A stretch of 42,017 bases of DNA from the NCBI GenBank assembly GCA_937876245.1, contig CALEGP010000026.1, positions 1 to 42,017 of the forward strand, given 5' to 3'. Position numbers and translations under genes: made by a program. The stretch comes from an uncultured Actinomycetes bacterium (GTDB taxonomy: Bacteria > Actinomycetota > Actinomycetes > Nanopelagicales > Nanopelagicaceae). This document shows, one piece after another, positions 6,837 through 24,267 of this stretch; within the stretch, counting starts at the first letter, position 1, and every line of letters starts with the position of its first letter. The notes under the pieces are model-generated. The model saw only the letters and a program-made list of their open reading frames with translations, did not search any database and was not told where the DNA came from.

Positions 6837-9292
6837 CGAACAGTGGCGCCACATTCTTTTAGAGCTGCAGCGGCAGCAGACTCGCGATATTGCGAAACCT
6901 CTTCAGCCGTTAGTGTCCGATCAGCTGCCCTAAAGACCAGAGTAAATGCCAGAGAAACTTTACCTTCTCCCAGTTTGTCGTAGCGATCGAAGAGAGTGAT
7001 GCTCTCCAACAAATCTCCAGCACCCGCTTTTAGGGCTGTTTCTACCGTCGCAGCAGCGATCGATTCATCAACTACTAGTGAGATGTCTTGTATAGCGGCA
7101 GGCATGGTGACCAAGGAAGGCGATTTTACCGATGCTGGAAAGTCAAGGGCGCCTAGAACAACAACAAATGCGCATGAACGTTCAGGCAATCCGAGAGCAC
7201 TGATTACCCTGGGATGGAGTTCGCCTGCGTGCGCAACCGCTCTGCCATTAACCTGAAATTCAGCACAACGACCTGGGTGCCATGGAGCAAAATCCGAGCT
7301 TATTACGGTGGCCAAATTTCCGGTTGATTCAATAATCATCCTCGCAAACCCAATTGATTCCACCCAAGTAAATTCTTCGGCCTTTCCGTTCCAGCTATCA
7401 GAGCCGAGTTTTCCAGCAACCACAGCACCTACGTGCAGTGGTTGATTAGGCACGCTGGCATAAATTCCTCTTCTTGTTTCGACATCCGGAACGCGATCGG
7501 TGCCTACTACCTTCTGAATCTCTAGTTTCTCGGTGTTTCTAAATACTGTACCTATTTCAAAAATAGCTATGTCTTTTGCGCCTCGCCCTTGATTTCTTAC
7601 CGCCGTCAACAGCAAGCCCGGCAGAAGGTGCGTCCGTAAATCCGGGAATTCTTCAGACATCGGATTCGCGATCCTAAAACTCTTAGCACGGTCCCCGACA
7701 AAACCTAATTCCGCCACAAAATTCGGATTAACAAATGGATAGTTGTACACCTCGGAGAAGCCATTATCAGCTAAGAAGTTAGCGACACCACGTTTGCGGT
7801 ACTGCATCGCCGAGAGAGCTGCGCCCTTCTTGCCAGTGGGCAGCGTAGAGGGAATTCGCTCATAACCGATCATTCTTGCAACTTCTTCGACTAAATCCGG
7901 AGCCAACAATAAATCCGCGCGCCAAGTTGGTGGACTTATCTCCCAATTAGTATCCGTTTCCCTAACAACTTCGCAGCCAACTACCCTTAATTTCTCCTCA
8001 ACTTCTGAAAGTGAAACCTGAATGCCTAAATACCTAGCGACGAAATTTGGATCAAAAGAAAGGATCGGAGCAAATTCAGGTTCGCCGAAAGTGCTAGTTC
8101 CAACATATGTGGCGCCGCCTAACTCAATCATCAGCGCAATCGCTCGCCCTGAGGAAATTTCCGCAAGCGATGGGTCAACTCCTCGCTCCAAACGTCTGGA
8201 GGCTTCCGAAGAGAGCTTATGCCGCCTCGAACCTTTCGCAATTGTAATTGGATCAAAACGGGCTGCTTCCAACGCAATAGTTGAAGTAGATTGCGTAACT
8301 TCCGAACTCGACCCACCCATCACCCCAGCTAAAGCCAGGGCCGTGCTCTTATCTGCTACAAGTAAATCTTCCGGGTCGAGATTACGCTCTTGATTATCCA
8401 AAGTCTTTATTTTCTTCGTTTGACCAGCGCGCCTAATAGTCAACAAGGTATCTATCTTTGAGCCATCAAATGCATGGAGCGGCTGTCCCAGTTCTAACAT
8501 TACATAATTTGTAATGTCGACCGCCAAAGAGATGGAGCGCATGCCAGATTTTTCAATACGGCGACTCATCCAGAGTGGCGTTGGCGCACCGGGATTGAAT
8601 TCGGAAATCGTTCTTATATACACAACCGATAGAGCCGAAGGGTCTTCAACTTCTATTTGGATGCCCGCTTTATTCTTATCAAATTTCGATAAATCCACTT
8701 TTAGCGCTGGGTCATCAAATTTGACTCCAAGCGAAGCTGCCAATTCGCGAGCCAAGCCACGAATAGAGAGGGCGTAACCTCGGTCCGGATTCACTGCCGC
8801 ATCAATAATCACATCATTGATCTCCAATAAAGCGATTGCATCTGCTCCAACTTTTGCGCAATCTGCTGGAAGCACGATAATGCCGGAATGCTCATCACTG
8901 ATACCCAGTTCACGTGCTGAACAAATCATGCCGTTACTAGTTCTTCCATAAGTTTCACGCGCAGATATTGCGAAATTCCCAGGTAGAACCGCACCGGGTA
9001 GAGCTGCTACAACAAGATCTCCAACAGCAAAATTAGTTGCGCCGCAAATTACAAAGCGCGCCGAGTCTTCCCCGCAATCCAACCCAACGAATCTAATGGG
9101 TTTCTTATTTCCTGTTAGTTCCTCGATTGATTCGACCCTGGCTACGGTAAGTGGTCCCTCTAAATCAGCGCCCTGAACTTCAATGCTTTCAATTTCGAAA
9201 CCAACGTTAACAAAGGCTAACTCAATTTCCGCAAGGGAGATCTCCTCCGGCACATCGGCAAATTCGCGAATCCACGAAAGCGGAATTTTCAT
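6830..9292 (-). CDS. pheT: Phenylalanyl-tRNA synthetase beta chain
   Basis: Beta subunit of the heterotetrameric PheRS. The 820 residues show the N-terminal and OB-fold tRNA-binding part (GLDCGEDSARFVICGATNF), the B5/B3-B4 region (RRHKLSSEASRRLERGVDP, editing), and the C-terminal anticodon-binding ferredoxin-like domain (DISLVVDES to the end, with FDRYDKLGEGKVSLAF). Its ATG overlaps the pheS stop in ATGA (9289-9292). The last codons double as part of the arginine operator at 6801-6836, which is unusual economy. Confidence 0.97.
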   Translation of the reverse strand: MKIPLSWIREFADVPEEISLAEIELAFVNVGFEIESIEVQGADLEGPLTVARVESIEELTGNKKPIRFVGLDCGEDSARFVICGATNFAVGDLVVAALPGAVLPGNFAISARETYGRTSNGMICSARELGISDEHSGIIVLPADCAKVGADAIALLEINDVIIDAAVNPDRGYALSIRGLARELAASLGVKFDDPALKVDLSKFDKNKAGIQIEVEDPSALSVVYIRTISEFNPGAPTPLWMSRRIEKSGMRSISLAVDITNYVMLELGQPLHAFDGSKIDTLLTIRRAGQTKKIKTLDNQERNLDPEDLLVADKSTALALAGVMGGSSSEVTQSTSTIALEAARFDPITIAKGSRRHKLSSEASRRLERGVDPSLAEISSGRAIALMIELGGATYVGTSTFGEPEFAPILSFDPNFVARYLGIQVSLSEVEEKLRVVGCEVVRETDTNWEISPPTWRADLLLAPDLVEEVARMIGYERIPSTLPTGKKGAALSAMQYRKRGVANFLADNGFSEVYNYPFVNPNFVAELGFVGDRAKSFRIANPMSEEFPDLRTHLLPGLLLTAVRNQGRGAKDIAIFEIGTVFRNTEKLEIQKVVGTDRVPDVETRRGIYASVPNQPLHVGAVVAGKLGSDSWNGKAEEFTWVESIGFARMIIESTGNLATVISSDFAPWHPGRCAEFQVNGRAVAHAGELHPRVISALGLPERSCAFVVVLGALDFPASVKSPSLVTMPAAIQDISLVVDESIAAATVETALKAGAGDLLESITLFDRYDKLGEGKVSLAFTLVFRAADRTLTAEEVSQYRESAAAAALKECGATVRV

Positions 9293-17753: not shown

Positions 17754-19007
17754 CTAAACCTTAAAGTATTTCTGAGCGCCGGCTATTGCATCTACTAATG
17801 CATCAACATCCGATTCATCGTTATAAATATAGAATGAAGCTCTAGTTGTTCCAACCAATCCCAATTTCTTCATAAGTGGCCAGGCGCAGTGATGGCCCGT
17901 TCGAACTGCGATTCCATATTGATCCAATACTTGCCCAACATCATGAGGATGGATCTTGTCCACAGTGAAGGAAATTACAGCCCCTCTATCAACAACATCC
18001 TTGGGTCCGATCACAGTTACTGCGCGAAGCTCAGAAAACTTTGTCAATGCGTACTTTGTTAATTCTCTCTCGTGGTTAGCTATATTTTCCATGCCAAGTT
18101 TAGTTAAGTAATTCAGGGCGGCTGCCAAACCAATAGCTTGTGCCATATTTGGAACACCAGCCTCGAATTTCTTGGGGGCCTGCGCCCATGTCGAATCAGT
18201 CATGGTGACAGATTCAATCATCGAACCACCGGTTAAGAATGGCTCCATCTCATTAAGATATTGCGTACGTCCCCAAAGAATGCCAACCCCAGTTGGGCCT
18301 AAAGCCTTATGTCCAGAAAAAGCCAGAAAATCGATATCTAGAGCTTTAACATCGATTGCAAAATGTGGGGCAGATTGACAGGCATCCAGCACGAAAACCG
18401 CACCGACCTCATGAGTTCTTGCAACAATATTTTCAAGAGGAACTATCGTGCCCAGTACATTTGATTGATGAGTGATTGCCACAATTTTAGTTTTTTCATT
18501 TATTAACTCTTCCAATTTTGACTGATCCAAACGCCCTTCAGGCGTTACTTCAAACCAGACTAGCTCTGCCCCGGTTCGCTTCGCCAACTGTTGCCACGGA
18601 ATCAGATTTGCATGGTGCTCAAGTTCTGAAACAACGATGCGATCGCCTGGCTCCAGAAAAAATCTAGAACCTGGTTTTGAGTTTCCAAACGAATAGGAGA
18701 GAGCATTTAGACTTTCTGTAGCACTCTTAGTGAAAACCAATTCAGACAAATCTGCATTTATGAAATCTGCAACAACTTGTCTTGCCCCCTCGTAAGCCTC
18801 GTTTGCCTCTTCGGCCAGAAGGTGTGCTCCCCTATGAACTGCAGCATTATGCAGCTCATAAAAATCGCGCTCTGCATCTAGAACTTGGCGTGGTTTTTGA
18901 CTGGTAGCACCACTGTCCAAATAAACTAAACGATTACCCCCGCGCATAATTTTAGAAAAGATAGGAAAATCTTTCTTAATTTCAAAGGGCAAGATTAGAT
19001 TTGGCAT
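17754..19007 (-). CDS. sufS: Cysteine desulfurase SufS
   Basis: PLP enzyme that removes sulfur from cysteine for Fe-S clusters. The 417 residues show the PLP lysine K234 in SGHKALGPTG, His131 of the ELEHHAN loop and the active-site C374 in RTGHHCAWP. The RTGHHC wording is that of group II (SufS-type) desulfurases. It is placed between sufC and sufU with 2-base gaps on each side, as in other actinobacterial SUF operons. Confidence 0.96.
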   Translation of the reverse strand: MPNLILPFEIKKDFPIFSKIMRGGNRLVYLDSGATSQKPRQVLDAERDFYELHNAAVHRGAHLLAEEANEAYEGARQVVADFINADLSELVFTKSATESLNALSYSFGNSKPGSRFFLEPGDRIVVSELEHHANLIPWQQLAKRTGAELVWFEVTPEGRLDQSKLEELINEKTKIVAITHQSNVLGTIVPLENIVARTHEVGAVFVLDACQSAPHFAIDVKALDIDFLAFSGHKALGPTGVGILWGRTQYLNEMEPFLTGGSMIESVTMTDSTWAQAPKKFEAGVPNMAQAIGLAAALNYLTKLGMENIANHERELTKYALTKFSELRAVTVIGPKDVVDRGAVISFTVDKIHPHDVGQVLDQYGIAVRTGHHCAWPLMKKLGLVGTTRASFYIYNDESDVDALVDAIAGAQKYFKV

Positions 19008-19009
19008 AT

Positions 19010-19762
19010 TTAAGCAGTTACGTAATCTGCGTAACCCTTCTCCTCTAATTTATCGGCTAATTCTGGACCACCCTGTTCGACGATTTTACCGCCGGCGAAA
19101 ACATGAACAAAGTCTGGCTTGATATAGCGAAGAATTCGAGTGTAATGAGTTATCAACATTATCCCCAGATCGCTGCTCTCTTTAACCTTGTTGACTCCCT
19201 CGGAAACAATTCGAAGTGCATCAACATCAAGCCCTGAATCAGTTTCATCTAAAATAGCAAATTTCGGTTTAAGCAATTCCAACTGAAGTATTTCGTGGCG
19301 CTTCTTTTCTCCTCCAGAAAAACCCTCATTCACATTACGCTCTGCAAAATTAGTATCCATATTCAATCCAGCCATAGCTGCTTTTACTTCTCCAACCCAT
19401 GTTCTAACTTTCGGCGCTTCCCCGCGAATCGCTGTTACTGCGGTTCGCAAAAAGTTGGTAACTGAAACTCCAGGAACTTCAACTGGATATTGCATCGCGA
19501 GGAATAGTCCCGCTTTTGCCCGCTCGTCCACGCTCATCGTTAGTACATCTTTGCCGTCCAAGAGAATTGAACCTCCTGTAACTGTATATTTTGGATGGCC
19601 AGCAATCGAGTATGCGAGGGTCGATTTTCCAGAACCGTTGGGCCCCATTATCGCGTGGGTCTCTCCCGATTTAATGGTCAAATCAACGCCCCGTAATATC
19701 TCCGTGAAACCGAGATCAGTTGCCACACTCACCATCAGTCCTTTAATTTCTAATGTACTCAT
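19010..19762 (-). CDS. sufC: Fe-S assembly ATPase SufC
   Basis: ABC-type ATPase of the SufBCD scaffold. From the chosen start it has 250 residues with Walker A GPNGSGKST (40-48), signature FSGGEKKRHEI and Walker B FAILDETDSGLD, the SufC-specific wording. Two ATGs are adjacent (19765 and 19762). AAAGGAGA lies only 3 bases before the first but 6 before the second, so I chose the second. The gene is preceded by the Rieske gene and followed by sufS. Confidence 0.96.
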   Translation of the reverse strand: MSTLEIKGLMVSVATDLGFTEILRGVDLTIKSGETHAIMGPNGSGKSTLAYSIAGHPKYTVTGGSILLDGKDVLTMSVDERAKAGLFLAMQYPVEVPGVSVTNFLRTAVTAIRGEAPKVRTWVGEVKAAMAGLNMDTNFAERNVNEGFSGGEKKRHEILQLELLKPKFAILDETDSGLDVDALRIVSEGVNKVKESSDLGIMLITHYTRILRYIKPDFVHVFAGGKIVEQGGPELADKLEEKGYADYVTA

Positions 19763-19782
19763 CATATTCTCCTTTGGTTTGA

Positions 19783-20097
19783 CTAAACTTTGCTATTTTT
19801 CTTGCCGGAAATAATTAAGGTGTCGCCAATCTTTTCTACCTCATAAGTTTCGACAGGGATTGAGGCAGGGGGCGTTAGAACTTCGCCTGTTCGCAAATCA
19901 AACTCTGCTCCGTGCAACCAGCATTCTATTTTGAACCCGGTCACCTCCCCCTCAGAAAGGGAAGCGTCAGAGTGCGAACAAGTATCAGCAATCGCGAAAA
20001 CTTCATCCCCTACCCGAGTAACACAAACAGGAGTTCCTTCAACATCTATCTTCACGGGCATGCCATCGGTTAAAGTGGACAATAACAATTCAGACAT
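19783..20097 (-). CDS. Rieske [2Fe-2S] ferredoxin of the SUF operon
   Basis: A 104-residue soluble protein with the two Rieske cluster motifs: C40-S-H42 in DTCSHSDASL and C59-W-L-H62 in ECWLHGAEFD. There is no membrane helix, so it is ferredoxin- or NirD-like and not the bc1 subunit. It starts on the base after the sufD stop and lies before sufC, a regular place for it in actinobacterial SUF operons. It may supply electrons for cluster assembly; that role is inferred from context only. Confidence 0.93.
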   Translation of the reverse strand: MSELLLSTLTDGMPVKIDVEGTPVCVTRVGDEVFAIADTCSHSDASLSEGEVTGFKIECWLHGAEFDLRTGEVLTPPASIPVETYEVEKIGDTLIISGKKNSKV

Positions 20098-21183
20098 TTA
20101 TTCGCCAACTCTCGAAAGCTCAAAATCAATGCGATCCATCAATCTGTTTTCAATTTCCTCGTTATTGATCTTCCCTACGATCTCAGAAAAGAAACCTCTG
20201 ACGACTAAACGTCTTGCCAAATCAGCTGGGATACCTCTTGAACATAGATAAAAAAGCTGTTCATCGTCGAAACGACCGGTTGTACTTGCGTGACCTGCGC
20301 CGAGAATCTCCCCTGTCTCAATTTCCAAGTTTGGGACAGAATCTGCACGGGCGCCATCAGAAAGAAGTAGGTTGCGATTCAATTCGTAAGTGTCTGTTCC
20401 TTCGGCATTGGCTCGAATATAAACATCACCAATCCAGACAGTATGCGCCTTATTCCCGGCGAGTGCCCCCTTGTAATTGACGCGACTCTTAGCATGTGCA
20501 ACATTGTGATCCACATGAAGGCGATGTTCCAGGTGCTGGCCATCGGTTGCAAAATATAAACCTAGAAGTTCAGCGCTTGATCCAGGACCTCGGTATTCAA
20601 CAGTCGGAGATAGACGGACCAATGAGCCACCTACGGTTACGACTATCGAACGAAATGAGGCATCCTTTGAGACGACGGCATGTTGCCGTCCTAGGTATAC
20701 CGATTTTGCTCCCCACTCTTGCAGAGAAACAAATGTTAAATTAGAGCCGGGCGCGACATCAAATTCGATGTCTTCAGCCAAAATTGCATCTCCACTGTTC
20801 TGCAGAATAATTGTTGCATGGGAATTAATACCGCAGGAAATTAGAGTGCGAGAAGCTTGTGCTTTACCGCTCAAATCCCTGCGATTGAGAAATATGGGTT
20901 CTGAAATATTCGCATCTTTTGCAATCTTAATATGAGTAACCTGCGCCACCGTTTCGCGAACCCGCACCATTGCCGCATCGTCTGTTTCTGAAATCGGATT
21001 TAGGTCCATCGTATCAACAACTTCGAGGCTTACCTCTCTTGATGCACTGCCTATTGCAATTGAACTCGAGCTAGTAATCTCAACGTTGTTGTCCAATAGA
21101 CCGCCCAAGCGAGAAAGTGGCGTAAAACGCCAAGCCTCTTCCCTCCCCGTTGGAGTCAGATAATTTGAAGTGAGAGTGCTCAT
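20098..21183 (-). CDS. sufD: Fe-S assembly protein SufD
   Basis: Partner of SufB in the SufBCD scaffold, 361 residues, made mainly of a right-handed beta-helix with the family's C-terminal part ADSVPNLEIETGEILGAGHA followed by the DDEQLFYLCSRGIP segment shared with SufB. The N-terminus is short (YLTPTGREEAWRFTPL, as in SufD). Its ATG shares one base with the sufB stop (TAATG). Confidence 0.95.
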   Translation of the reverse strand: MSTLTSNYLTPTGREEAWRFTPLSRLGGLLDNNVEITSSSSIAIGSASREVSLEVVDTMDLNPISETDDAAMVRVRETVAQVTHIKIAKDANISEPIFLNRRDLSGKAQASRTLISCGINSHATIILQNSGDAILAEDIEFDVAPGSNLTFVSLQEWGAKSVYLGRQHAVVSKDASFRSIVVTVGGSLVRLSPTVEYRGPGSSAELLGLYFATDGQHLEHRLHVDHNVAHAKSRVNYKGALAGNKAHTVWIGDVYIRANAEGTDTYELNRNLLLSDGARADSVPNLEIETGEILGAGHASTTGRFDDEQLFYLCSRGIPADLARRLVVRGFFSEIVGKINNEEIENRLMDRIDFELSRVGE

Positions 21184-22601
21184 TAACCGACTGCACCTTC
21201 CATCTGCATTTCAATCAAACGGTTTAATTCTAAGGCATACTCCATCGGTAATTCTCGTGCAATTGGCTCAATGAATCCTCTAACAATCATTGCCATGGCT
21301 TCATCCTCGCCCAGACCCCGAGACATAAGGTAGAAGAGTTGATCATCACTGATTTTAGAAACCGTAGCTTCATGCCCCATTGATACGTCATCCTCGCGAA
21401 CATCAACATATGGATAAGTGTCGGATCGAGAAATCGTATCTACTAGTAGTGCGTCACATTTAACTGTTGATTTAGAATGGTGCGCACCTTCGTTGACCTG
21501 AACTAGGCCTCTATAAGATGTACGTCCACCACCCCGAGCAACAGATTTGGAAATAATTGTTGAAGATGTGTATGGCGCGGCATGAATCATTTTTGCCCCA
21601 GCATCCTGATGTTGGCCTTCACCAGCAAATGCAATTGAGAGAGTCTCACCCTTTGAGTGTGGTCCCATCAGCATCACGGCCGGATATTTCATTGTGACTT
21701 TGGAACCAATGTTTCCATCAATCCACTCCATAGTCGCGCCTTCGGCACATGTCGCTCGCTTGGTCACCAAGTTGTAAACGTTGTTAGACCAATTTTGAAT
21801 AGTCGTATAACGCACTCGCGCATTCTTCTTGATGATAATTTCCACAACGGCAGAGTGAAGAGAATCTGATGAATAAATCGGGGCAGTGCAACCTTCAACA
21901 TAGTGCACATATGAATCTTCATCCGCAATAATCAAAGTGCGTTCAAACTGACCCATGTTCTCGGTATTAATACGGAAATATGCTTGTAATGGGATATCTA
22001 CTTTGACGCCCTTTGGGATATAGATAAAGGATCCGCCAGACCAGACTGAGGTATTAAGAGCAGCAAACTTATTATCACCAACTGGAATAACCGTACCAAA
22101 ATACTCTTTAAATAACTCTTCGTGTTCGCGAAGACCAGTATCCGTATCAACAAAAATTACGCCCTGCGCTTCCAAATCCTCACGAATAGAGTGATAAACA
22201 ACTTCAGATTCGTATTGCGCAGCAACTCCAGAAACTAAACGCTGTTTCTCAGCTTCAGGAATTCCCAATCGATCATAGGTATTCTTAATGTCATCTGGAA
22301 GATCTTCCCAGGAGGTAGCCTGCTTTTCGGTTGATCGAACGAAGTATTTAATGGTGTCAAAAAATATCCCAGACAGATCTGAGCCCCATGTTGGCATTGG
22401 CTTTTTTTCGAAAAGATTTAGACCTTTGAGTCGTAGGTCAAGCATCCACTTTGGCTCACTCTTTTTCCCAGAGATATCGCGAACAACTTCCTCATTAATT
22501 CCTCGACGAGAATTTGCGCTGACATCATTTTTATCAGACCAACCAAATTCGTAATTTCCAATTCCCTCTAGGCCAGGATTCTTCGCTAGTACGTCGCTCA
22601 T
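21183..22601 (-). CDS. sufB: Fe-S assembly scaffold SufB
   Basis: Core scaffold on which Fe-S clusters are built. From the ATG at 22601 it has 472 residues with the family segments [11 protein letters not shown] near the N-terminus, [32 protein letters not shown] (conserved cysteine) and [28 protein letters not shown] at the C-terminus. An in-frame ATG at 22619 lies inside sufR and has no ribosome-binding site; the ATG at 22601 lies 1 base after the sufR stop. It shares one base with sufD. Confidence 0.96.
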
Positions 22602-22602
22602 T

Positions 22603-23277
22603 TCAGGCTCGCTCTCCATTTTTGGTTAGTTTTTCGGAATTTGGTATAAATGTTGTGCAAACACCATCGCCATGGGCGATAGTCGCCAAACGTTGAACAT
22701 GAGTTCCTAGTAGTACAGAGAATGCTTGCGTTTCAGCTTCACAAAGTTCTGGAAACTGCGATGCGACATGGGCTATCGGACAGTGGTTCTGGCAAAGTTG
22801 CTCACCCATCCCCTGTGATTGATTATTCGCCGCGTAACCTTCATCTGATAGAAATTTGGCTAGGGCCTCACTTTTTTCGCTCAGATTTTTTTTATTAGCT
22901 AAAATTTGAGCTGCTCGCCTAGTTATTTCGCGAGCACGATCCATCGCAAATTCTTTGACAAGCGATTCATCTCCCGTTGACGCCATGAAGCGCAACGCCG
23001 ACACAGCCAAATCATCATATGTGTGCTCAAACTTTTCTCGGCCCGCATCTGTCATTATAAAAACCTTGGATGGACGGCCACGTCCTCGTGGATTTGAAGT
23101 TCTTTGAAATGGTTCACGAGCGGCCAATACACCTTCTGCTATTAGTGAATCTAAATGGCGCCTAATTCCAGCGGGAGTAATCTTCAATCTATCTGCCAAG
23201 GTTCCAGCCGTAGCAGGACCTTTCTCTAGAATTGCCCGAGCCACTACATCACGAGTTCGCTCTTCATTTCTTTTCAC
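22603..23277 (-). CDS. sufR: SufR, Fe-S-binding repressor of the SUF operon
   Basis: Transcriptional regulator that senses Fe-S status through its own cluster. The N-terminal winged helix ([23 protein letters not shown]) is followed by the basic wing [12 protein letters not shown]. The C-terminal half carries three cysteines in CQNHC and PELCEAE (C162, C166, C179 from the chosen start), the known SufR ligand pattern. I chose GTG at 23277 (224 residues), where family members begin ([11 protein letters not shown]). The open frame continues to GTG 23337 without a ribosome-binding site. A CAAC-N6-GTTG operator lies directly on this start, arguing for autorepression of sufRBD-Rieske-CSUT. Confidence 0.94.
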
Positions 23278-23290
23278 AACAGTATTGTTG
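23277..23290 (-). promoter_or_regulatory. SufR operator, CAAC-N6-GTTG
   Basis: Bases 23277-23290 are a 14-base inverted repeat, CAAC-AGTATT-GTTG on the plus strand, with the inner arms extending to CAACA/TGTTG. CAAC-N6-GTTG is, as I recall it, the operator reported for SufR of Streptomyces. The site covers the presumed start point of sufR and a -10-like AACAAT (23284-23289). Confidence 0.75.
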
Positions 23291-23355
23291 CGTAATTCAT
23301 GAAAACTCGCCACTCGGACCCATGCCTCTTGGCCCACGCGTGCCGCGTGAGCGCT

Positions 23356-23361
23356 TAGGCT
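23356..23361 (+). promoter_or_regulatory. Candidate -10 box of ctaA
   Basis: TAGGCT ends 6 bases before the ctaA ATG (23368), which predicts a transcript starting at the ATG. No Shine-Dalgarno is visible. The SufR operator lies 66 bases further upstream in the same divergent space. Confidence 0.45.
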
Positions 23362-23367
23362 ACGAGC

Positions 23368-24267
23368 ATGAATTTAGCCTCTTTTATCTTTACAACCCTT
23401 TTAGTATTCCAGGCTGGACTAGTAGTGACGGGTGGGGCGGTGCGACTGACAGGTTCTGGCCTTGGCTGCCCCACCTGGCCTGAGTGCACCAGCGGTTCGA
23501 TAAAGCCAATTATTCATCAAGCCCAGGGCCAACTCCACTCTTGGATCGAATTTGGCAACCGTCTTATTGCTTGGCTAATTTTGATTCTGGCAATCGCAAG
23601 TTTGGTCTATATTGTAAAAAGATTGCAATCTCGTCCCGACTTTAAACGTTTACGTCTTCTTGCTATATTCCAAATCTTAGGTTTTTTTGGCCAAGTTGTT
23701 CTCGGTGGAATCACCGTTCTCACAGAGCTAAATCCGATCGCAGTCTCGGCCCATTTTGTTCTAACTATTCCCTTAATTGCTGGAGCTCTTGCCCTGCGTC
23801 ATAGGATTTTGGACCGCAAGATTGTTTACCTTGCGCCAATAACTCGCACCCTAACGGTATTCGTTGTCTCTTTAACTTTTATCGTTTTGCTACTTGGGAC
23901 ATTAGTTACTGGCACTGGCCCACATGCTGGTGATATAAAGGCTAAGCGCTATCCATTTGAGGCACGAGCTATCTCATGGTTGCATGCAGATGTTGTTATC
24001 GCGCTTATCTGTTTGATCGTTGCACTTTATCTCTTGGTTCGAGTGTCGGAATCTGAAGAAGTCAGAAGAGTCTTTGGTCGCCTTGTTTTTATATTTCTCC
24101 TGGTTTCGTTGCTGCAGGGAGCAATTGGCTATGTCCAATACTTCACCGGCTTACCTGAACTTATCGTCGGGGCTCATTTGCTCGGTGCAACTTTAGTTTG
24201 GATAAGTGCTTGGCAAATAAATCTAACTGGCCGTGAAAATATACAAGAAGAGAGAGTTGGGAAATAG
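23368..24267 (+). CDS. ctaA: Heme A synthase (COX15/CtaA family)
   Basis: Membrane enzyme that oxidises heme O to heme A for cytochrome c oxidase. The 299 residues contain about eight membrane helices. The family's paired histidines are in HSWIEFGNRLIAW, AHFVLTIPLIAGALALRH, WLHADVVIALI and VGAHLLGATLVW. The N-terminal GGAVRLTGSGLGCPTWPEC carries the conserved cysteine pair seen in many CtaA proteins. It diverges from sufR and is directly followed by tkt. ctaB, often nearby in relatives, is not in the window. Confidence 0.95.
   Translation: MNLASFIFTTLLVFQAGLVVTGGAVRLTGSGLGCPTWPECTSGSIKPIIHQAQGQLHSWIEFGNRLIAWLILILAIASLVYIVKRLQSRPDFKRLRLLAIFQILGFFGQVVLGGITVLTELNPIAVSAHFVLTIPLIAGALALRHRILDRKIVYLAPITRTLTVFVVSLTFIVLLLGTLVTGTGPHAGDIKAKRYPFEARAISWLHADVVIALICLIVALYLLVRVSESEEVRRVFGRLVFIFLLVSLLQGAIGYVQYFTGLPELIVGAHLLGATLVWISAWQINLTGRENIQEERVGK

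Follow-up and report, generated by a model that had tools for sequence, protein, structure and literature searches.

A candidate SufR regulon joining Fe-S cluster assembly to iron import in the order Nanopelagicales

RESULTS

The suf locus and the repeat at the sufR start

The window (the whole 42,017-nt stretch analyzed here, contig CALEGP010000026.1 of an uncultured member of the Nanopelagicaceae) carries a suf operon on its minus strand, in the order sufR-sufB-sufD-(Rieske-like small ORF)-sufC-sufS, with ctaA running divergently on the plus strand. Its features are as follows.

17754..19007, minus: sufS (TIGR01979, over cut-off)
19010..19765, minus: sufC (TIGR01978, over cut-off)
19783..20097, minus: small operon ORF, 104 aa, Rieske-type ferredoxin-like (ORF and CxH motif by eye)
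20098..21183, minus: sufD (TIGR01981, over cut-off)
21183..22619, minus: sufB (TIGR01980, 727.9 bits)
22603..23277, minus: sufR, 224 aa, HTH and cluster ligands C-x3-C-x12-C-x27-C (TIGR02702 SufR_cyano, E 4e-20, below cut-off)
23275..23277, minus: sufR GTG start, its G being the operator's last base and the predicted +1 (conservation; analogy with Streptomyces avermitilis and Mycobacterium tuberculosis in the available text of PMC11995493 and PMC6034842)
23272..23295, minus: extended operator TTACGCAACAATACTGTTGTGAAA, an imperfect dyad (9/12 pairs), with no other match in the genome when as many as 3 mismatches are allowed
23277..23290, minus: core candidate SufR operator CAACAATACTGTTG, CAAC-N6-GTTG, invariant in 24/24 genus members
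23284..23289, minus: sufR -10 box AACAAT, within the core operator; the -10 of S. avermitilis is identical (available text of PMC11995493)
23308..23313, minus: probable sufR -35 box GTGGCG, 18-nt spacer; TGGC at fixed spacing in genus and family
23356..23361, plus: ctaA -10 TAGGCT, 6 nt before the ATG, an independent leaderless promoter kept in genus relatives whatever the operator distance
23368..24267, plus: ctaA (COX15-CtaA), divergent (PF02628, E 1e-21)

The sufR gene lies directly 5' of, and co-oriented with, sufB-D-C-S, and its frame shares 17 bases with that of sufB (window 22603-22619), which suggests translational coupling. The SufR match to TIGR02702 extends over 28-229 at 72 bits, against a cyanobacterial cut-off of 178.8, and the cysteine spacing C-x3-C-x12-C-x27-C is present in the SufR of 47/47 relatives. 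Each genome of the order has one full-length SufR match; two MAG records titled Bifidobacterium breve (L066 and L073) contain a SufR 81 to 82% identical to that of this lineage, and their titles are probably wrong.

A first-pass annotation had read the inverted repeat CAACAGTATTGTTG (23277-23290 on the plus strand; CAACAATACTGTTG on the sufR strand) as a SufR operator that overlaps the sufR -10 box and presumed +1, decides the sufR start and is shared with ctaA. Sixty relatives were searched for SufR, of which 56 matched, and their upstream DNA was aligned on the site. The operator reading is borne out by this alignment: CAAC-N6-GTTG is kept in 24/24 genus members examined, the window included, within the frame [G/T]A[A/T]TTACG-site-TGAAA. 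Family-wide, the right half GTTGTGAAA is invariant, and the left half is ACAC rather than CAAC in five genomes (G028, G029, G030, G031, and G035); conservation of the left half is weaker again across the class.

The overlap with the promoter also holds, as AACAAT falls within the repeat and the repeat ends on the G that opens GTG 23277. An [AC]ACANT-like -10 box is found at sufR in most class relatives, and TGGC in the upstream hexamer GTGGCG is conserved in the genus (T100 G100 G100 C92) and stands at fixed spacing throughout the family; we infer a -35 role for this hexamer. Because the operator is conserved in 24/24 members and the start codon holds a constant position next to it in the genus alignment, GTG 23277 is taken as the sufR start, in preference to the in-frame alternative at 23337 (60 nt upstream), which is not conserved among relatives; in several of these the frame upstream of GTG 23277 closes after 18 to 36 nt. 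An in-frame GTG 36 nt upstream recurs in many relatives, but it is the -35 hexamer GTGGCG itself and so provides no evidence for a longer protein. The sufR mRNA is probably leaderless. Autorepression of sufR-suf, as predicted in the first-pass annotation, is backed by this conservation and by analogy with the arrangements published for S. avermitilis and M. tuberculosis, as given in the available text of PMC11995493 and PMC6034842. To judge from its letters and placement, the site as first noted is a standard SufR autoregulatory operator in the textbook actinobacterial arrangement.

As a predictor of regulon members, the bare CAAC-N6-GTTG pattern fails: the 1.52-Mb genome contains 31 sites versus 49 for the reversed control, and 27/29 sites outside the window fall within open frames. 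Both a second copy of the core in the window (at 8270) and an intergenic match at C2:12974 are without the extended arms. The significance of the sufR site lies in its position and conservation, the eight-letter pattern by itself not being special; the 24-mer TTACGCAACANTANTGTTGTGAAA, searched with a tolerance of 3 mismatches, gave a single site in the 1.52-Mb genome.

A palindrome with the same arm precedes iron importer genes

Searching the genome with a symmetrized form of the extended motif yielded a single other site with perfect arms, the intergenic palindrome TTACGCAAC-N6-GTTGCGTAA (full form, TTACGCAACTTAAGCGTTGCGTAA) at G000:C38:130174-130197, both arms of which are the left arm TTACGCAAC of the extended sufR operator. 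This palindrome lies 28 bp upstream of an iron permease gene, ftr (PF03239 FTR1, E 2e-58; NCBIfam EfeU over cut-off). A further match, at G000:C25:4223, lies within a sugar-permease gene and was rejected.

When as many as 2 mismatches are allowed, the palindrome is present in 37/37 family-panel genomes and in a single relative besides; in the 60-genome panel, controls with the reversed pattern gave almost no matches. Across the order, the palindrome occurs in 278/296 genomes (107/108 of those of high quality). We identified the downstream gene in all fetched contexts, counting each distinct context once, and the 79 distinct importer contexts comprise 66 for FTR1, 12 for FbpA-type ferric ABC importers, and 1 for NRAMP; a further 30 contexts are at SufR, and 3 are unassigned. 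In G009, G020, and G034, in which FTR1 was not detected, the palindrome precedes genes for FbpA-type solute-binding proteins. The NCBIfam names of these ABC importers are ambiguous (phosphonate, thiamine, ferric), and the assignment was decided by solved ferric-iron-binding proteins, which the products from G009 and G034 match with E values of 1e-70 to 1e-78. Genome G024 is likewise without FTR1 and has the same palindrome as G020; where both importers are present (G228 and G229), or where there are two FTR1 genes (G010), each has one site. That the palindrome precedes a ferric-binding ABC importer where FTR1 is missing indicates that the site tracks the function of iron import and not one particular gene.

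The palindrome is restricted to suf and metal (iron) importers, bar three weaker two-mismatch matches (in L214, L215, and L224), single cases to which no target was assigned. One of these, L214:2006-2029 in G282, lies 56 nt 5' of a gene resembling O-acetylhomoserine sulfhydrylase, which may be a target in sulfur metabolism in this one genome.

In 78/78 FTR1 and FbpA contexts, a spacer of 17 or 18 nt separates TTGCGT, in the right arm of the palindrome, from a downstream TAnnnT, from which we conclude that this arm also serves as the -35 element. At ftr, the sufR half-site is thus placed on promoter elements and conserved clade-wide, the grounds on which we count the gene as a candidate regulon member. 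The operator contains the -35 at importers and covers the -10/+1 at sufR, and both placements fit repression by a bound dimer. In two contexts (L166:3131-3171 and L165:3646-3690), the fbpA leader, downstream of the SufR-type promoter, includes an almost perfect inverted repeat, CTAGAGTTTTGG...CCAAAACTCTAG, which may be an additional operator or a hairpin masking the RBS.

In the five family genomes with ACAC at sufR, the ftr palindrome is perfect or nearly so, suggesting that autorepression there is weaker than repression of the importer.

Candidate regulators of the importers

Fur-family proteins, two of which are encoded in this genome and which are found across the order, are the only serious rival to SufR at the importers. 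Were SufR to control suf only, the importer palindrome could belong to another metal sensor, most likely of this family, its likeness to the sufR site arising by chance or shared ancestry; such a sensor could account for an importer site that stays CAAC/GTTG where the sufR left half is ACAC. We regard this as unlikely, given that the two operators share an identical arm, TTACGCAAC, and that the core is the exact published SufR site. Fur boxes are AT-rich 7-1-7 repeats, which the palindrome does not resemble, and it occurs at no other gene group, whereas one would expect a Fur regulon to exceed one importer.

Other iron regulators are rare or missing in the order. No Rrf2/IscR-type regulator was found in this genome, and such proteins exceed the cut-off in 12/296 genomes of the order. 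Neither does this genome encode a regulator of the DtxR family: DtxR/IdeR (PF02742) was detected in 4/296 genomes of the order, all from genus g6, and is absent from the other 292, as opposed to its presence in 20/23 relatives outside the order. The regions upstream of ftr mirror this distribution. Scanned with a general IdeR consensus, 12/15 of those outside the order have an IdeR-like box, equaled in no more than 1 of 100 shuffles, and such regions generally miss the SufR-type palindrome; inside the order, the pattern is reversed. In G038 (L236), a relative from outside the order, ftr is preceded at -94 and -43 by a weak palindrome of SufR-like form, TTACGGCACAATTCTTTTGCCTAA (4 mismatches), and by an IdeR-like box.

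Genus g6 combines the two systems: in the three genomes whose ftr upstream region was read, the palindrome and GTAGGTTAGGCATACCTAA-like IdeR boxes both precede ftr. In the SufR tree, in which G031 alone represents g6, this genus branches as the sister of all remaining members of the order (support, 99/96), as expected if the recruitment of SufR came before the loss of IdeR. SufR has probably taken over the control of iron import from DtxR/IdeR, to judge from these gene and site distributions.

ctaA as a possible cotarget

The first-pass annotation had further raised the chance that the operator also controls ctaA, such that heme A synthesis follows Fe-S status. Its count of 78 bases between the operator and the ctaA ATG (23368) is correct, and divergent adjacency at 80 to about 300 bp is seen in most members of the order examined. 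The operator, however, is over 70 bp from the ctaA start on its upstream side and does not reach the gene's own promoter: TAGGCT-N6-ATG is retained throughout the genus with little change, wherever the operator is located. No second operator copy was seen near ctaA, nor, among the relatives compared, did the operator keep a constant distance from the ctaA promoter. Outside the order, ctaA lies about 1.8 kb off in several class relatives that retain the sufR operator, and in some others it was not found in the stretch around sufR, with the operator again staying with sufR. Because of the separate promoter, the variable distance, and this separation outside the order, cocontrol is not supported; ctaA is probably not a SufR target, and we hold the shared-operator proposal to be very improbable.

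Least credible is that the sufR repeat is no operator, merely a conserved promoter and start codon with fortuitous symmetry: although class-wide conservation is strongest at the -10 and GTTGTGAAAA, the genus shows no variation in the entire left arm and TTACG, upstream of the -10, and the same arm makes a perfect palindrome at importers, there at the -35.

DISCUSSION

A dual-target model for SufR

The known role of SufR is local, as a repressor of suf. We consider it highly likely that in this lineage SufR binds both the sufR operator and the ftr palindrome, repressing suf and iron import according to cluster status, with ctaA not among its targets. The explanation is favored by the shared half-site TTACGCAAC, the published SufR core, the cysteines of 47/47 relatives, the order-wide palindrome, and the loss of DtxR/IdeR. 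Counted against it are the ACAC at sufR in five family genomes whose importer palindrome is intact, the genome's two Fur-family proteins, and a TIGR02702 match below the curated cut-off. We infer from sequence comparison that SufR is the binder of both sites, that its effect is repression, and that the signal is the cluster state.

Under the dual-target model, SufR would carry [4Fe-4S] when clusters are plentiful and bind two genomic sites. Holo-SufR on the sufR -10/+1 (window 23272-23295) would block its own suf operon, and on G000:C38:130174-130197, which contains the ftr -35 box, it would block iron import through the EfeU/FTR1-family permease. When iron or clusters run short, apo-SufR would leave both sites, and cluster assembly and iron uptake would rise together.

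For the order as a whole, it is probable, with somewhat less assurance, that the Nanopelagicales exchanged the Fe2+ sensor IdeR for the Fe-S sensor SufR at iron import, with g6 as an intermediate possessing both regulators and both boxes, and that the SufR operator was kept or reacquired through importer swaps (FTR1, FbpABC, and NRAMP). If so, a dominant freshwater lineage reads iron through cluster status, using one protein and about two operators for both assembly and import, a minimal iron circuit in keeping with a 1.5-Mb genome. It would constitute an independent parallel to RirA of the Alphaproteobacteria, with a living intermediate that makes a regulator handover testable, and SufR operators would be predicted to mark iron importers in unannotated genomes. 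Taken together, the sites outline a compact, order-wide candidate regulon of SufR type joining Fe-S assembly to iron import, along with an apparent regulator replacement. Our literature search, which covered titles and abstracts and few subscription journals, turned up no paper in which SufR controls iron import and nothing relevant on iron regulation in Nanopelagicales.

Comparison with known systems

The closest counterparts are actinobacterial. In S. avermitilis, sufR is likewise first in its operon, sufRBDCSU (Cheng et al. 2020, per PMC11995493), and the SufR site has the same form, CAAC-N6-GTTG, with its first part over the -10 AACAAT and its last G as the TSS; the available text of PMC11995493 reports no iron-importer target there, and the importer palindrome found here is of higher symmetry. 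The SufR cysteine spacing is that of Corynebacterium glutamicum (171/175/188/216), as given in the same text. Rv1460 (SufR) of M. tuberculosis resembles the SufR described here in being an autorepressor with a leaderless mRNA and a start reannotated downstream, and the available text of PMC6034842 describes no link to an importer.

Farther afield, Synechocystis SufR recognizes the same DNA core and is a [4Fe-4S] repressor of suf and of itself, with targets given in a 2026 review as sufBCDS and ftrC and no iron permease listed (PMC8593673, PMC13421787); note that ftrC encodes ferredoxin-thioredoxin reductase and is unrelated to the FTR1 discussed here. Rhizobium RirA is likewise a [4Fe-4S] repressor gating iron uptake, but it belongs to the Rrf2 family, rare in this order, and has the IRO box as its DNA site (PMC6748827, PMC10510648). 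Actinobacterial DtxR/IdeR follows the same logic, repressing iron import at iron sufficiency; it differs from the proposed SufR control in sensing Fe2+ directly, and its gene, kept in most of the actinobacterial relatives searched outside the order, is missing from 292/296 genomes within it.
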